Assembly (NCBI GenBank): GCA_027859235.1
Contig: JAQIBE010000285.1
Coordinates: forward strand, 1 to 43,173
Reading direction: 5' to 3'
Origin: Desulfobulbaceae bacterium
GTDB lineage: Bacteria; Desulfobacterota; Desulfobulbia; Desulfobulbales; SURF-16
Length of the DNA stretch: 43,173 bases
In this document: in pieces, positions 1 through 9,562 of the stretch
Numbering within the stretch: position 1 is the first letter of the stretch
How the letters are laid out: each line of letters opens with the position of its first letter
The notes under the pieces: model-generated
Databases searched by the model: none
Seen by the model: the letters and a program-made list of their open reading frames with translations, nothing else
Told to the model about the DNA's origin: nothing
Position numbers and translations under genes: made by a program

Positions 1-81
1 ACTATTAACATCCTCCACTACCTCCATGAATTTAAGTCCACGGAGAGGTTAATCGGAGGGGTCAATTTTGGGCGCTGTTTT

Positions 82-528
82 CTATCTTAAGGGGGTCATT
101 ATTGCACGCTGATTAACATACGAATGCAGGTAATTGAATTCTTCGCCTCTTGAACGTTTTATAATTGCTTCAATATCTGTGTCGTTTTGAATATTAAATG
201 GCTTTTTTGTATCAATAAAATAAAAAGTTTCGATCTTTTCCCAAGTTAGGTTTGTGTTCCCTATGAATTGCATGCCTAAAATAAAAGATTCGAATTTTTC
301 GTTTAAACGAATTAACTCATCTTTAATAAACTCTGGCTTAATATTTTCTACCCAAATTTGTAAATAACCTACTTTGCTGCCATTCTTGTCGGGTATTAAA
401 AAAGAAGTATTTTGGGCATTCCATAGAGATTGTCCTGACTTGTATAGGATAGACAAATTCTTAATTTCATAATTAATCTGCAACGTTTGCTTATGTGTAT
501 TCATGCTTTCATATTTAATCTTTATCAT
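82..528 (-). CDS. hypothetical protein; start probably at internal Met (528 or 504) rather than 615
   Basis: Open frame MIKIKYESMNTHKQTLQINYEIKNL...; the upstream part of the 177-aa ORF overlaps the neighbouring membrane-protein ORF, so an internal start is likelier. Confidence 0.5.
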   Translation of the reverse strand: MIKIKYESMNTHKQTLQINYEIKNLSILYKSGQSLWNAQNTSFLIPDKNGSKVGYLQIWVENIKPEFIKDELIRLNEKFESFILGMQFIGNTNLTWEKIETFYFIDTKKPFNIQNDTDIEAIIKRSRGEEFNYLHSYVNQRAIMTPLR

Positions 529-889
529 CTTGATCGGCAACTTTTCGCAAAGGTGCCACCAGAGTATTGAAAAAGTCACTCCAGGCAATTTTGAATCCGA
601 GTATTCCACCGCCAATCAAGCCTACCCAAACACCAAAACTGTCCTTACCAGTAATTTGTGCGCCAATATATGCGCCCAAAATTGGAAACCCTAAAATAAA
701 AACCAACATTAGAAGATATGTCAGTAGTATACCGACAGCTGTAAAAGGTGAGACAATTAAGCCAATACCAAGCAAAAACCCCCATAATGGACTATCAAAT
801 CTTTGATAGTAATCGCCAATATGCATTAATTGGAAAAGTATTATGATTATTCCCAATATCGGTAGAGCAACTCTTAGTAGACTCTTCAT
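515..889 (-). CDS. small hydrophobic membrane protein (putative cassette gene)
   Basis: ORF 515..898 with ATG at 889 (MKSLLRVALPILGIIIILFQ...); several hydrophobic segments; lies immediately downstream of an attC-like site on the minus strand. Confidence 0.55.
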   Translation of the reverse strand: MKSLLRVALPILGIIIILFQLMHIGDYYQRFDSPLWGFLLGIGLIVSPFTAVGILLTYLLMLVFILGFPILGAYIGAQITGKDSFGVWVGLIGGGILGFKIAWSDFFNTLVAPLRKVADQDDKD

Positions 890-896
890 TATTTTC

Positions 897-1031
897 ACCT
901 AACGTTGAATTAACCTGAAAAAAGGGAGCGTAACGAGGTGTGCAGGAATGTCGCAAACTTAGTAGAGGGACGGAAAGTAAAGCCAACCACCTAACCCCTT
1001 TTTTTGTACCAGGTTTAATGACTTGTTAGGG
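897..1031 (-). other. attC-like recombination site (integron cassette attC)
   Basis: Minus strand: CCCTAACAAGTCATTAAACCTG ... CAGGTTAATTCAACGTTAGGT; terminal RYYYAAC/GTTRRRY-like boxes, imperfectly complementary arms (one extra base in the first arm), about 135 bp. The stop codon of the upstream HNH-like gene lies in the R'' box. Confidence 0.72.
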
Positions 1032-1973
1032 GCCTTCCCCTGAATACACCTCATACGAGAAAAGAATATCATTACTTTCATCCAACGGGGTTTCCTCTTT
1101 AATTCTACGCGTTACCCCATCACTCCCCTTCCCAAAAGATTTCCAGCTCTCTGCCGGAAGCCCCTCAAATATCATCGGACATTCTTCATGGCTATATATT
1201 CCACCAACCACTCTTAGGTGCTTATTCCATTCTAATGCCCAGAACCAACAGCCTGGTTTGTCTATGATGCGGCATAGCATGGCCTTAAAGTTCCCATCAG
1301 CAGTATTTATGTTTGCGTAGCATCTCAGTTCCTCTGCACGTTTGGATAACTCCGTAAGCTCAGCATTACCCCAATCACCGTGATTGTATGCCCTATGAAA
1401 CCAAAAATTAGATTCTGGCAGTAGGCATGTTCCTGACTCTTTATCCGGTGCCTTGGATGTTATTAAAGAAAACAGCCCTTGAACATGGTAAAATGATAGT
1501 TCCCTAATGTATTGTTGACTGACCTGTGGTGGTGAGGTCGCTTCGAACTTCATACTCAATGCACCAATATTGAACTTGAATACATGAGTGTCAGTCGCAT
1601 CTTTAACCAGTACACCAGGTTTTAATGGATGGAAATCACGAGACGCTTTTGATATTGCCCTTTCAACGTATTCACGCTTTTCCTGTTTATGAATTGAGTT
1701 TAGTAGCGTCACACTTGACACATGCCTTTCAAGCTCTGATTTGTTACTATTACATACCTCACACGCCCTGAATATAAAGTTAAACTGGCTTCCTTCTTGG
1801 AAAGATCCAGTTGGAACAAATTGCCTCCCAATTAGATGCTCTTTGTTGGAAGGTGCTTCAGATCCAATTCCAACAGGTACACCACAATACAAACAATATT
1901 GATTTGATTTCTCTTTCTTTCTGTCAAACCAAACTACTGGTTGGTTTTTTCTGAACTTATGGACTGGTTTCAT
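1026..1973 (-). CDS. HNH-type zinc-finger/endonuclease-like protein (putative cassette gene)
   Basis: YCLYCGVPVG...NKEHLIGRQFVPTG...FRACEVCNSNKSELE: paired CxxC motifs around an H, resembling HNH-type proteins. Confidence 0.55.
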   Translation of the reverse strand: MKPVHKFRKNQPVVWFDRKKEKSNQYCLYCGVPVGIGSEAPSNKEHLIGRQFVPTGSFQEGSQFNFIFRACEVCNSNKSELERHVSSVTLLNSIHKQEKREYVERAISKASRDFHPLKPGVLVKDATDTHVFKFNIGALSMKFEATSPPQVSQQYIRELSFYHVQGLFSLITSKAPDKESGTCLLPESNFWFHRAYNHGDWGNAELTELSKRAEELRCYANINTADGNFKAMLCRIIDKPGCWFWALEWNKHLRVVGGIYSHEECPMIFEGLPAESWKSFGKGSDGVTRRIKEETPLDESNDILFSYEVYSGEGP

Positions 1974-2010
1974 TTTTTACGACCGCTGATTCTTGTTTTG
2001 CACCTAATAA

Positions 2011-2136
2011 GTTATTATCCGGTTTCCTGATATCATTCCGGGTGAAGACAATTTGATAACGATTTTTCGTTCATGATACCATTTTCTAACTGGTTATCAT
2101 TCAATAACGAGTGATAACCGGAAACTGGATATCAAC
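2011..2136. repeat. cluster of TGATAACC-like motifs bounded by an imperfect ~25-bp inverted repeat
   Basis: 2011-2035 GTTATTATCCGGTTTCCTGATATCA versus 2112-2136 TGATAACCGGAAACTGGATATCAAC (inverted, about 19/25 matches); internal TGATAACG (2054), TGATACC (2074), GGTTATCA (2092). Confidence 0.6.
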
Positions 2137-2190
2137 ACATGATCCAAATTCCTCTATCTTTTCACCCATTCAGCCCTGAGCGAGCAGGGA

Positions 2191-2285
2191 GCCTGAAAAG
2201 GGAAAGAGAATTGCAGCATGTCTGAGCACCCCGCCAGGGGGTATAAACTCTGCGAGTTTCTGCAATTCCCCTTTTCCGGCGGAAG
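2191..2285. repeat. imperfect palindromic noncoding element
   Basis: GAATTGCAG (2208-2216) / CTGCAATTC (2260-2268) perfect inverted repeat inside a larger imperfect palindrome. Confidence 0.45.
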
Positions 2286-2605
2286 GTGAGCGGTGCCGCA
2301 GGCCAGGGCAGTGGGGCCAACTTGAACCTAGCGATGGTGGCGGGAATTTGGCGTCAAAAGTCAAAAGCGGACTTGCCCCCCCTTGTCCTTGTTGCGCTTG
2401 ATCTTACAGGCCGGCGCCATCATCAAAGAGGTGGCACCCTGGTGGACAAGCTACCCGAGGCCTTGACGACTGGCCCTGGTTTTGTCGAGAAGATGACGGG
2501 TTTATGTCGTTGATTTTTTGTATGGATTTTATTATCAATAATTGATAATTTGAGAAATGGTGGTGCAGTACTAAAATCTTCATTAATAGAGGGGTATTAA
2601 TTCTT

Positions 2606-3055
2606 ATGAAAAGAGCAAGTTGTATAAGTTGTATTCTGTTGATTTTGGCATTCTCGCTGTCTGGTTGTTTGGGGATGATGGCAAATACACCTTATGAAGC
2701 AATAGCCCCCAATAACGGTGATGCACTGGTCTATGTCTATAGGCCTGAGAGTGTCTGGTGGAGAGGCACCCCTTTTATTGTGTATGCAGGGGATAAAAAG
2801 TATGACCCTCTTATTAATAATGCTTACTACCCAGTACATGTTAAGCCTGGAACCGTATTTTTTAGGTTGACGACCAAGTCTACAGTCTTTGGTGAGCAGC
2901 GAGTTGATGCTGTTGAGATGAGTGTGGAGAGTGGTAAAGTGTATTACCTTAAGGTGAAGCCGAGACCAGCTGGTGCCTTCAAGTTTGTCATCATGACGAG
3001 TGATGAGGGATCAAAAGAGGTAGCTAGTACAAAGTTCTACTACACGGAAAAGTAA
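2606..3055 (+). CDS. lipoprotein, DUF2846-like
   Basis: Lipobox LSGC near N-terminus; GDALVYVYRPESVWWRGTPFIVYAGDKKYDPL...YYPVHVKPGTVFFRLTTKS pattern as in DUF2846 lipoproteins; followed by an attC-like site. Confidence 0.7.
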   Translation: MKRASCISCILLILAFSLSGCLGMMANTPYEAIAPNNGDALVYVYRPESVWWRGTPFIVYAGDKKYDPLINNAYYPVHVKPGTVFFRLTTKSTVFGEQRVDAVEMSVESGKVYYLKVKPRPAGAFKFVIMTSDEGSKEVASTKFYYTEK

Positions 3056-3095
3056 GATCAGGTAGGAGTAGTTGCCATACGTAAAAAAGGGGGGC

Positions 3096-3147
3096 GGAGG
3101 GATTAAATTTGAACAGGAAGGATGATTGGTTAAATAATAATCCCTCC
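3096..3147. repeat. inverted repeat downstream of the lipoprotein gene (possible terminator or decayed site)
   Basis: GGAGGGATTA (3096-3105) / TAATCCCTCC (3138-3147), perfect 10-bp arms. Confidence 0.4.
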
Positions 3148-3234
3148 ATCTCCTTTTCCCCTAAGAGTTGCCTGGTGCTGCTCATCATTTCTGTAACTCA
3201 ATAAATATTTAACTGTGATAGGGAAATACAAAAA

Positions 3235-3307
3235 GCCCTAACTACGCGCTCAAAATGGACGCAAATTCCGCGGCTCTCTATTTGCGCCTTTTAGCTCGGC
3301 GTTAACC
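3235..3307 (+). other. attC-like recombination site
   Basis: GCCCTAACTACGCGCTCAAAATGGACGCAAAT...ATTTGCGCCTTTTAGCTCGGCGTTAACC: terminal TAAC/GTTA boxes, complementary arms GCTcAAAAtGGaCGCAAAT / ATTTGCGCCTTTTAGC with extra (extrahelical-like) bases in the first arm. Confidence 0.6.
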
Positions 3308-3435
3308 TTGCCACATCCAACCTCATGAATTTCTCAATTCACCCAAGGTTAACCTTCCTACTGTGAATGTCATATCTGATAATGTCTTATCGTTAAAGTT
3401 GTCAGGCCATGTCTGAACAACTACAGCTTAACCCG

Positions 3436-5316
3436 TTATTCTTGCAAATCCATTGCCGCCTGGATAATCGCTGGCGGGTCAATTTTAGCGAGTTGCCACA
3501 GCGTAGATTGCGGGCCATGTTCCATAAAGATGTCGGGAATGCCCAGCACTGTACAGTCAACCTGGAGTTTCCGGCGGGCAAATAATTCCAGGATGCCGCT
3601 GCCGAAGCCGCCTTTCTTGACATTATCTTCAATGGTAACAACCTTGCCAATCTTTTCAGCCCACTGGCAGATCAGGTCCCCATCCAGGGGAGTGATAAAA
3701 CGTGGATTGATGACAGCAGCGCTGATACCAAGTTTCTGCAAACCTTCAGCAGCCTCCATGGCAGGGGCAACCCGATTGCCGATGGGGAGCAGGAGGACAT
3801 CAGTCCCTTCCTGCAATAACTCCCCCTTGCCGATGGCGAGTTTCTCATATCCTTCAGAGAGGGGAACCCCTAAACCATTTCCACGGCTATACCGGACGGC
3901 ACTGGGGCCGGGTAGGAATGTTGCCGTATAGAGCATGTTGCGTAATTCCTCTTCATCCTTGGGCGCCATAAACACCATGTTGGGGATGAAGCGAAAGAAT
4001 GAGAGATCAAAAACACCATGGTGGGTTGCACCGTCAGCCCCAACAACACCACCACGATCAATGGCAAAGGTGACGGGTAAATTGGGCAGGCAGACGTCAT
4101 GAATGATTTGATCCATGGCCCTTTGGAAGAAGGTGGAGTAGACCGCCACAACGGGTAGTATCCCCTCTGTGGCAAGACCTGCCGCAAAGGTTACGCCGTG
4201 CTGTTCGGCAATGCCCACATCGAAAAAACGATCGGGGAATTTCTCACTAAACTCCACCAGACCGGTACCTGCCGGCATGGCTGCGGTGATGGCCACAACA
4301 CGAGGATCTTTCTCCGCAAGGTCAACCATGGTCTCCCCAAAAATCTGGGTGTATGACGGAGGTGTTTTGGTTTTAGGAGGGAGTGGTATGCCTGTTGCCT
4401 TGTTAAATGGACCAACACCATGGAATGCCCCGGGGTTCTGTTCCGCAGGAACATAGCCTTTGCCTTTCGTGGTGAGGACATGGATAAGCACAGGGCCATC
4501 ATGGTGATCACGGACATTCTCAAATGTCTCCAGCAGGGCTGGAAGGTCATGACCGGCAATGGGGCCGATGTATTCAAATTTAAGGGCTTCAAACAACATG
4601 CCTGGGGTGAAAAAGCCCTTAAAGCTCTCCTCACTCTTCTTTAAAACCTGAAGAATGTTTTCGCCAACACTATGAAATCCTTTAAGGAATGACTCCATCT
4701 CTTTTTTGATGTGTACTATGGTTTTGCCGGAGAGTTTACGGCTCAAAAAGGTGGAAAGGGCGCCGACATTCGGGGCAATGGACATCTCATTATCATTGAG
4801 GATGACAATGAGGTTCTTGTCGAGATGGCCCGCCTGGTTGAGGGCTTCAAAGGCCATCCCCCCTGTCATGGAACCATCACCGATAACGGCAATGGCTCGG
4901 GCCGTGTCCCCTTTGAGGTATTTGGCAAGACTTATACCAAGGGCTGCCGAGATCGAGGTGGATGAGTGACCGGTGTTAAAGGTGTCATAGGGCGACTCCT
5001 CTCTCTTGGGGAAACCGCTTATTCCCTTGTACTGCCGCAGGGTGTGAAATTGATCCCGGCGACCGGTGATGAGTTTATGGGTATAGACCTGATGACCGAC
5101 ATCCCAAACCAGTTTGTCTGTGGGGGTATCGAAAATATAATGCAATGCCAGGGTGAGTTCAACCACCCCAAGGCACGGGGCGAGATGGCCACCGGTTACG
5201 CTCACCGTATCGATAATGGTTTCACGGATCTCTTCCGCAAGATTAAGGAGCTGCTTGGGGTCAAGAAGGCGCAGGTCTTCAGGGGAATCAATGTGCGATA
5301 ATATTTGAGAGGTCAT
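3436..5316 (-). CDS. dxs: 1-deoxy-D-xylulose-5-phosphate synthase
   Basis: Full-length transketolase-type protein with [53 protein letters not shown]. Confidence 0.96.
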
Positions 5317-5361
5317 GGCGTTATTCTAGTAAAATATTGAGACATTACAAGGCGTTATGCC

Positions 5362-6261
5362 TTATTTGTTCCGGGAGTAAATATAATGAGCAAGTTCGCG
5401 CAGGGGCTCACAGCGATGGTCAAAGGGTTCCAGACATGTGATGGCGTCATCCACGGCTTGTCTGGCCTTGGTCCTGGTGCCTTCAATACCAAAAAAGGCT
5501 GGGTAGGTTGCCTTGTCCAGTTCGGCATCTGACCCTGCTTTTTTGCCCAGTTGCTCGGTGGTGGCGGTTACATTGAGGAGATCATCAACGATCTGAAAGG
5601 CCAGGCCGATATGTCTGCCATAATTTGTAAAGGCCTTATATTCGGCAGGGGTAGCATTGCCCAGGATGGCGCCCATCTGGACAGAGGCGGTTATAAGGGC
5701 CCCTGTTTTACAGGAGTGCAGGGTGCGTAAGGTATCAAAATCGATTTCTTTGCCTTCAGAATCAATATCAATGGCCTGTCCACCCACCATACCCAGGGAG
5801 CCTGCTGACTGGGCTAAAACTTGAATGAGTTTAACCTGTGTCTCAGCAGATATCTGTGACGTCAGGGTGGGTGCACTGAGGAGGTCAAAACTAAAGGTGA
5901 GCAGGCCGTCACCGGCAAGTATGGCTGCCGCCTCTCCAAATTTTACATGGCTGGTGGGCTTGCCGCGTCTGAGGTCATCATTGTCCATGGCAGGAAGATC
6001 ATCATGGATAAGGGAATAGGTGTGGATGCACTCAAGGCTCATGGCAACAGGCAGTATGGCGTTATTATGAGAACCTAAAGTCTCTGCTGCTGCAATACAT
6101 AGAATGGGGCGGATGCGCTTCCCTCCAGCAAAAAGAGAGTAGCGCATGGTCTCAATATGTCCGGCAAGAAGGGAATCCCCTTTGAGCATGTACTGCTCCA
6201 TGCTCGCTTCAATAATGGTTTTTTTATCATGCAGATACTGTTTAAGATTCATTATGTTCAA
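5362..6261 (-). CDS. ispA: polyprenyl (farnesyl) diphosphate synthase
   Basis: LIHDDLPAMDNDDLRRGKPTSHVKFGEAAAILAGDGLL and FQIVDDLLN Asp-rich motifs. Confidence 0.93.
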   Translation of the reverse strand: MNIMNLKQYLHDKKTIIEASMEQYMLKGDSLLAGHIETMRYSLFAGGKRIRPILCIAAAETLGSHNNAILPVAMSLECIHTYSLIHDDLPAMDNDDLRRGKPTSHVKFGEAAAILAGDGLLTFSFDLLSAPTLTSQISAETQVKLIQVLAQSAGSLGMVGGQAIDIDSEGKEIDFDTLRTLHSCKTGALITASVQMGAILGNATPAEYKAFTNYGRHIGLAFQIVDDLLNVTATTEQLGKKAGSDAELDKATYPAFFGIEGTRTKARQAVDDAITCLEPFDHRCEPLRELAHYIYSRNK

Positions 6262-6469
6262 AAGGGGTCTCTATGAAGCTGTTGTTCTTTTCGAGGAGAA
6301 GGGAGACTTTCTTCTTTGACTCATCAAGCTTCTTATTGCAAAAATCAGCAAGATTAATTCCCTCTTCAAATTTCTTTAAACTAACATCCAGCGGCAACTC
6401 ACCACTCTCCAGCTCAGCCGTGATCTGTTCCAGCTGCTCCATTGCCTGTTCAAATGTTTTTCGAGCCAT
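6242..6469 (-). CDS. xseB: exodeoxyribonuclease VII small subunit
   Basis: FEQAMEQLEQITAELESGELPLDVSLKKFEEGINL; overlaps ispA start. Confidence 0.93.
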   Translation of the reverse strand: MARKTFEQAMEQLEQITAELESGELPLDVSLKKFEEGINLADFCNKKLDESKKKVSLLLEKNNSFIETPFEHNES

Positions 6470-6743
6470 TACTGTTAACCTATTTGCTGCCTTGGGTCCG
6501 AGCAGTCGTTATACAAAACAAGAAACTGGATAATTCCTATGGGAATAAATAGGTTATCTCTGACATAAAACCGTTTCTGCTGAGTTTGATGCCCCTTTCC
6601 GGTTTGCCGGATTAGAGGTGTTGAATAAGGGGACAATAGTAAAATAGAAACCTGCAGGTGGCAACGGTTTAAAAAAAAACATGGCTGTGGTAATTAGTTC
6701 TAAGTCAGACACTTTCAGTGTGAAAATATAAGGTTACAGGATC

Positions 6744-7661
6744 ATTGCCATTAAAAATAAAATTACTCTCCAGCATGTAGCCCTGTTTCTTGATTGGCTC
6801 AGGGTGGAGAAGGGCTATTCTGAGCATACTGTAGCTAGTTATAGGCTCGATATTAGCGATTATAACTCTTGCGATAAGGGTGAGGCTGAAACCATTACCC
6901 TCACGAAGGATTCTATCCGGCGTTGGGTGTATGGGCTCAATAGCAATAAAAAGCCTGCCTCTGTTGCCCGGATGATCTCAGGCTTGCGGCAGTTCTGTCG
7001 TTTCCTCGTGCGGGAAAACTATCTTGTAACGGATCCAACCGCGTCCATCTCCATGCCAAAGATCGGCAAACACATCCCTGTCTTCCTCAGTGTTGACGAG
7101 GTCTTTTCCCTCATTGAAGAACCCCGGGGTGGCGATCGCTTTCATTTACGGGATACGGCAATTTTAGAATTGCTCTACTCAACCGGTATGCGTGTCTCTG
7201 AAATTTCAAAATGTGAACTTGCGGCGCTTGATTTTCAGCAGGGAATGGTTACCGTACTCGGCAAAGGAAAGAAAGAAAGACTGGTTCCTGTGGGGAATCA
7301 GGCCCTGGATGCGGTGCGTCATTATTTTCCCCAAAGGCAGTCTCTCATTGAGGCAAAGCTTAAAAGAGGCAGGCTCCATGCGGATGATCCCTTGTTTGTT
7401 AATAGCAGGGGGGGGCGTTTAACCAGTCGCTCAATTGAAAGAATGGTGGCAGGATATGGCCAGCGGGCAGGAATCGTTGTGCCGGTGACACCCCATGCCC
7501 TCAGACATTCCTTTGCCACCCATTTGCTTGAAATGGGTGCCGACCTGCGGGTGGTGCAGGAGCTGCTTGGCCATGCCAGTCTTTCCACCACGCAAAAATA
7601 TACTCATTTAACCATAGATCATCTCATGGATGTGTACGATAAGGCCCATCCGTTAAAGTGA
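6744..7661 (+). CDS. xerC: tyrosine recombinase XerC; start probably upstream of GTG 6804, at a non-ATG codon
   Basis: R...HALRHSFATHLLEMGADLRVVQELLGHASLSTTQKYTHL; xerC-hslV-hslU order. In-frame extension IAIKNKITLQHVALFLDWLRVEKGYSEHT supplies the usual N-terminus. Confidence 0.85.
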   Translation: MAIKNKITLQHVALFLDWLRVEKGYSEHTVASYRLDISDYNSCDKGEAETITLTKDSIRRWVYGLNSNKKPASVARMISGLRQFCRFLVRENYLVTDPTASISMPKIGKHIPVFLSVDEVFSLIEEPRGGDRFHLRDTAILELLYSTGMRVSEISKCELAALDFQQGMVTVLGKGKKERLVPVGNQALDAVRHYFPQRQSLIEAKLKRGRLHADDPLFVNSRGGRLTSRSIERMVAGYGQRAGIVVPVTPHALRHSFATHLLEMGADLRVVQELLGHASLSTTQKYTHLTIDHLMDVYDKAHPLK

Positions 7662-7667
7662 ACAATA

Positions 7668-8213
7668 TTGGATACAAAACATATGAAAATAAGATCAACG
7701 ACAATTATTTGCATTCGCCATAAGGGTGATGTGGTTATGGCCGGTGATGGCCAGGTTTCCCTCGGTAATACCATCATGAAGCAAGGGGCACGGAAGGTGC
7801 GGCGTCTCTATAATGATAAGGTGATTACAGGTTTTGCCGGTGCCACGGCTGATGCCTTTACGCTGTTTGACCGGCTTGAAACGAAGCTTGAGCAATTTAA
7901 CGGCAATCTCATGCGGGCCTCGGTTGAGCTGGCTAAAGATTGGCGGACGGATAAAATGCTGCGGCGTCTGGAGGCCATGCTGATTGCGGCAGATGCAGAT
8001 TGCAGCCTCCTCCTTACCGGGACAGGTGATGTTATTGAATCGGATGACGGGATCCTTGCCATTGGGTCAGGCGGTGTTTATGCCCAGTCTGCGGCCAAGG
8101 CCTTGATTCAGCATAGTGATTTGAATGCAGAAGAAATCGCCAGGGCCTCCATGGAGATTGCCGGATCCATCTGTGTCTTTACAAATTCAACTATTGTGGT
8201 GGAAAAGATATGA
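7668..8213 (+). CDS. hslV: ATP-dependent protease subunit HslV
   Basis: [37 protein letters not shown]; start may be ATG 7683. Confidence 0.95.
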
Positions 8214-9562
8214 AGCAACTACAACCCCTTTCCCCAAAAGAGATTGTGGCAGCATTGGATAAGTACATCATTGGTCAGGACTCGGCCAAGCGTTTTGTGG
8301 CGGTTGCCCTGCGTAATCGCTGGCGCAGGCAGCAGGTTCCCCAGCCGTTGCGGGATGAGATTTCGCCAAAAAACATCATCATGATCGGCCCCACCGGTGT
8401 GGGTAAAACGGAAATTGCCAGGCGTCTGGCCCAGCTGGTTCGTTCCCCTTTTTTAAAGGTCGAGGCCACTAAATTCACGGAAGTGGGTTATGTCGGCCGG
8501 GATGTGGAGTCCATGATCCGTGATCTCACTGAGCTTGCCGTGACCCTTGTCAAGGAGGAACAGACTGAGATTGTTCAGCAGAAGGCCAAAGACAGGGCGA
8601 AAGAGGCCCTGCTCGATTTGCTTGTTCCGCCTTCTCCGGTTGCCCCGGGTGTGGACCCTGCTGATCCTGCTGTCTCTCCAACCCGCGAGAAGTTTCGGAA
8701 GATGCTTGCGGATGGTGTGCTGGATGAGCGGGAGGTGGAGATGCAGATTGAGCAACCCGGTCCAACAATGCCCATGGTTGAAATGCTTTCCACCGGACCT
8801 GCGGATGATATGGGTTCTTCCATGAAGGATATGTTCTCTAATCTCTTCCCTAAGAAATCCCAGAAACAAAAGCTGCGTGTGAAGGACGCCATTCCAGTGC
8901 TTGAAAAACAGGAGGCGGATAAACTCATTGATATGGAACAGGTGAATCGTCTTGCTGTGGAACGGGTTGAGCAGACCGGAATTATCTTCCTGGATGAAAT
9001 TGACAAGATTGCCTCCCGTGGTACAGGCGGCAGTGCTGGCGAAGTTTCACGGGAAGGGGTTCAGCGTGATCTCCTGCCCATTGTTGAGGGGGCAAGCGTC
9101 AATACAAAATATGGCATGGTGCGCACGGATCACATCCTTTTTATTGCCAGCGGTGCCTTTCATTCCAGTAAACCCTCTGACCTGGTTCCGGAATTACAGG
9201 GGCGTTTTCCTGTACGGGTGGAGCTTCATGCCCTGGGAGAGGATGAGTTCTACAGGATTCTTGTTGAGCCGCAGAATGCCTTGCTCAAGCAGTATAAGGC
9301 CCTGCTGGCAACAGAGGGTATTGATCTTGAGTTTGCTGATGATGCGATTCACAGTATGGCCAGGATAGCGGCTGAGGTGAATGAATCCACTGAGAATATC
9401 GGGGCACGCAGGCTCCATACCATTCTGGAGAAATTGCTTGAGAATATCTCCTTTGATGCCCCGGATATGGAAGCTTCGGTCTTTCCGGTTACAGCGGAGT
9501 ATGTTGACTCCCAGTTGTCCGACATTGCCGAGGATAAGGATCTGAGCCGCTATATCCTCTAA
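8210..9562 (+). CDS. hslU: ATP-dependent protease ATPase subunit HslU
   Basis: [32 protein letters not shown], Walker [18 protein letters not shown]. Confidence 0.97.

Follow-up and report, generated by a model that had tools for sequence, protein, structure and literature searches.

The minus-strand segment that we call attC_A is very probably an attC site at the 3' end of a gene cassette with a 315-amino-acid (aa) cargo and, as read from sequence, belongs to a small integrase-less cluster between ompH and dxs. It lies in a stretch of 43,173 nucleotides (the window), which is the whole of contig C166 in a 2.85 Mb genome of 333 contigs and 97% completeness. The finding is genuine and belongs to a known class, integrase-less cassettes; what is unusual is only the scattering of attC sites and their junctions with a dispersed repeat. 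The evidence comprises the anatomy of the site, the packing of genes around it, covariance-model matches for two sites, clean controls and an insertion into the conserved order dxs-ompH-pal-glgP, together with cassette ORFs of low G+C content that relatives lack, the presence of attC sites on further contigs and integrases that are common in relatives. Counting against it are the opposite-facing attC sites, the lack of attI and of an intact intI, and the use of a covariance model of our own with rough E-values.

Table 1. Features of the window (R2 is the covariance model described in the text; its E-values are rough)
Feature	Position	Strand	Remarks
attC_A	897..1031	-	covariance model R2 (31.5 bits, E 7.3e-5) and rule-based scan
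attC_B	3236..3307	+	R2: 25.4 bits, E 0.0019
ORF of 140 aa, 31% G+C	82..504	-	
Next cassette ORF, 124-125 aa, predicted small membrane protein	515..889	-	8 nt past R'
Cassette ORF, 315 aa, HNH-like (CxxC...CxxCN)	1026..1973	-	stop within R'' of attC_A
Palindrome-rich repeat	2149..2380	+	common to C267 (near the truncated intI end), C332 and C113
DUF2846 lipoprotein-like ORF	2606..3055	+	Pfam PF11008, E 2.2e-9
Start of dispersed repeat	3302..3372	+	at least 13 other places in the genome
dxs	3436..5316	-	right-hand flank of the insertion

Anatomy and statistical support of attC_A

Read along the minus strand, attC_A is made up of R'' (1031-1025), L'' (1019-1010), L' (917-909) and R' (903-897), with a total length of 135 nt. 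The R' box, GTTAGGT, matches the GTTRRRY consensus, and R'', CCCTAAC, matches RYYYAAC apart from its first base, C in place of R; the earlier note on this DNA, which had seen both consensus boxes, was thus right about R' and, except at that position, about R''. The two boxes are complementary at six of seven pairs. Spacers of 5 nt each (AAGTC between R'' and L'', TCAAC between L' and R') separate them from the inner arms, in which L'' (ATTAAACCTG) forms nine pairs with L' (CAGGTTAAT) and keeps one extra unpaired A, and the arms enclose an A+T-rich middle of 92 nt. The TAA stop (1028-1026) of the ORF at 1026-1973 is contained in R'', and the next ATG (889-887) starts 8 nt past the end of R'. 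Complementary arms with an unpaired extra base in the first arm, a length of about 135 bp, a stop codon inside R'' and a following ORF 8 bp after R' had been described before, and our measurements reproduce them.

A rule-based scan for attC anatomy, run over the 43 kb window in two forms, returned attC_A as the sole match in the first form and as the top-scoring match (12.5) in the second; in shuffled windows (n = 60) there were 0.017 sites per window at a score of 12.5. The folding free energy of the site was unremarkable (z about -0.7). We also built covariance models in which all training attC sites came from other genomes, that is, from integron cassettes in four annotated plasmid regions and from integron loci of relatives. 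Model R1, with shortened loops, placed attC_A as its best match genome-wide but with a low score. Model R2, trained on 20 full attC sites, matched attC_A with 31.5 bits at exactly 897-1031, with E-values of 7.3e-5 over 175 kb and 0.0012 over the whole genome that are rough because the calibration was short. Accepted sites from class 1 integron plasmids and from relatives score in the same range; of itself, an attC model score is no proof of recombination activity. The covariance-model check had been proposed with attc_4.cm, and R2, used instead, recovered the very coordinates that had been put forward. Across 211 kb of dxs regions from related genomes R2 gave no match at E <= 10, Rfam gave no attC match in window positions 1-9000, and attC_A used as a DNA query had no near copy in the genome.

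A second GTTAGGT occurs within attC_A at 989-995 of the minus strand, its far end 43 nt from the start of R''. This inner copy could pair with the same R'' box, a pairing favoured by R1, which had been trained on shortened loops and was replaced by R2 with its full sites.

Cassette cargo and the insertion between ompH and dxs

In a sister species and three other relatives, dxs lies convergent with ompH at a distance of 100-270 bp, and pal and glgP come next. In this genome, glgP-pal-ompH closes contig C305, with 26 bp left after ompH, and cassettes amounting to at least 3.3 kb, plus a contig break, stand between ompH and dxs. Since the contig with dxs begins with cassettes, the insert there measures 3.3 kb or more, and its left end lies beyond the assembled sequence. 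A comparison with related genomes, also suggested beforehand, found dxs adjoining ompH without the insert and the two tested cassette ORFs absent; the relatives and the covariance model therefore agree in supporting the original reading of the site as attC and of its surroundings as gene cassettes.

The 315-aa ORF has the traits of a gene cassette in its stop within R'', the next ATG 8 nt past R' and its absence at the same place in relatives. Its description as HNH-like holds to the extent of visible CxxC...CxxCN motifs and weak profile matches to NsnC/PtuB (6e-5 and 8e-4) and to an HNH family (0.09). No homologue was found in 116 relatives, plasmids, phages or viral contigs, and a single-sequence structure prediction was poor (mean pLDDT 36) and was not used. 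The next cassette would begin directly after attC_A, and its 125-aa ORF had no homologue in 116 relatives, plasmids or viral contigs. The 140-aa ORF beyond it is probably a second gene of the same cassette, the contig ending before any attC that would belong to that ORF. The G+C content of the cassette ORFs is 31-43%, against 52% in dxs.

The second site, attC_B, comes after the plus-strand DUF2846 ORF, which is the cargo of the cassette ending in it, and its orientation is opposite to that of attC_A. A reading by eye had put attC_B on the minus strand and was discarded, as R2 places it on the plus strand in agreement with the DUF2846 ORF. Because attC_B stands behind that plus-strand ORF, the two cassettes point away from each other, and because it faces the opposite way the arrangement is no simple head-to-tail array. 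The two sites are 2.2 kb apart with no integrase gene nearby, and the attC_A cassette together with the oppositely oriented DUF2846 cassette would form the small cluster inserted between ompH and dxs.

Integrase remnants, other attC-like sites and known systems

Integron integrases were detected in 35 of 58 genomes of the lineage, this genome counted (E <= 1e-40). Neither an intact intI nor an attI is present in the window or was found in the genome, where intI is represented by two broken copies, a truncated N-terminal half at C267:11262-11756 and a short C-terminal piece with a stop at C161:453-572. Further attC-like sites were found with R2 on C275, C243, C332 (two), C66 (two in tandem), C89 and C204, and also on C252, C60 and C267, for a genome total of about 12 on 10 contigs; the site on C243 is doubtful by eye, and for the weakest ones (C60, C267 and C252) the score alone is insufficient. 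Several of the sites on C267, C252 and C66 form one family about 120 bp long. At C252:14224-16277 two sequences of the attC family lie about 2 kb apart and face outward, as attC_A and attC_B do in the window.

With about 12 attC-like sites, two broken integrase genes and no intact one found, the place is best described as a small integrase-less cassette cluster. We infer that the cassettes arrived here through an integron integrase and now lie stranded. By analogy with known integrons, the bottom strand (here the plus strand) would be folded into a hairpin by such an integrase supplied in trans, and recombination between the G and TT of R' would insert or excise cassettes. As only broken integrase genes seem to be left, the cassettes are probably fixed unless an integrase arrives from elsewhere.

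Compared with the attC (59-base element) of integron cassettes, attC_A has the same R and L boxes, spacers and single extrahelical base in L'', as well as the stop in R'' and the next ORF directly past R'. It differs in being long (135 nt) and A+T-rich and in having C as the first base of R'', and the cargo here belongs to no known family. A complete integron has an intact intI and attI beside its array, whereas the window has no intI. IntegronFinder 2 reports a CALIN where at least two attC sites occur without an integrase (PMC9024848), and a single attC site without integrase is a SALIN (PMC12690207). Few attC sites and no integrase gene nearby are common to both and to the window, which, owing to the opposite orientation of its two sites, counts as two back-to-back single cassettes as much as one cluster. 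The CALIN signature first proposed suits the place in the sense of attC sites without a nearby integrase, and not in that of a demonstrated run of cassettes in a single orientation. Stray cassettes here adjoin core genes in a lineage in which integrons occur widely; their orphan cargo includes an HNH-like protein that weakly resembles PtuB of the Septu defence system.

Dispersed repeats and rival explanations

A dispersed repeat (TTAAYATTGCCACATCCAACCTCANGAATTTCTCAAYTCACCC...), with a core of about 73 bp, has its start precisely on the attC_B crossover point, G|TT. In about six copies (C22, C31, C113, C252:7742, C310 and C119) the sequence runs on, on the upstream side, through a left part of up to 125 bp that these copies have in common; the others (window, C204, C92, C304, C252:14224, C89, C91 and C77) differ on their upstream side and share sequence from TTAA onwards. 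Besides the attC_B joint, an attC-like half-site stands in front of at least four more copies. Measured against GTTAA sites in general, the 14 bases before the crossover place five of these eight differing copies among the best 0.2-2.2% for an attC 3' half; limiting the background to GTTAA sites with the G unscored weakens the junction test, yet five of the eight remain at or below 0.022. The window copy has the right half of the repeat, and the contig ends on the other side; beyond the cassettes, neither the window nor the searched flanks of C252, C89, C92 and C304 yielded the left half, which leaves simple insertion of a cassette into an intact repeat copy unsupported. The repeat pattern had no match in viral contigs. 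Given the missing left half, we report the repeat at attC crossovers as unexplained, with three readings: it may serve as a secondary integrase target, it may be the terminal part of a mobile cassette that has no ORF, or it may be an element with attC crossovers as its target. We think it rather unlikely that the repeat is a multi-copy landing site, its 5' edge the integrase crossover and different cassettes joined to separate copies at G|TTAA, which would scatter cassettes round the chromosome, or else is itself mobile and targets the attC crossover.

How the cassettes came to lie between ompH and dxs bears on the same junctions. An integrase may have inserted them at a non-classical attG-like site supplied by the dispersed repeat, a possibility that we take seriously without favouring it. 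Cassette insertion at attG sites has been described (Loot et al., 2024, as cited in PMC12901181), attC_B meets the repeat exactly at the crossover and attC-like half-sites do so at other copies; however, the upstream half of the intact repeat was found neither in the window nor in the C252, C89, C92 and C304 flanks. Our case resembles the attG insertions of Loot et al. in the genomic position of the cassettes, away from any integron, and in a joint at G|TT; it differs in that several joints fall on copies of one dispersed repeat and that the searched flanks did not contain the second half of the site. Should the repeat junctions prove to be genuine integrase products, they would constitute a natural record of cassette landing places outside integrons.

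The core-gene identity of both flanks, dxs and ompH, the opposite orientation of the two attC sites and the recovery of only broken intI genes at 97% completeness make it unlikely that the window holds a fragment of a larger ordinary chromosomal integron split by assembly, with an intact integrase and attI in unassembled sequence, even though the first bases of the contig already lie within a cassette, contig ends are also close to other attC sites (C66, C275, C332 and C204) and draft assemblies often split integrons (PMC9024848). Nor do we give much weight to a chance look-alike, such as a long intergenic imperfect palindrome or a terminator: it would fit the ordinary folding energy, the deviating first base of R'' and the A+T-rich middle, but the R2 score, the controls, the gene packing, the second attC close by and the others in the genome render it highly improbable. 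An integrase-less cassette cluster thus remains our preferred reading.

The palindrome-rich repeat of the window also recurs near cassette components. On C267 the intI homology is lost near a copy of it, and three of its four places are close to attC sites or intI.
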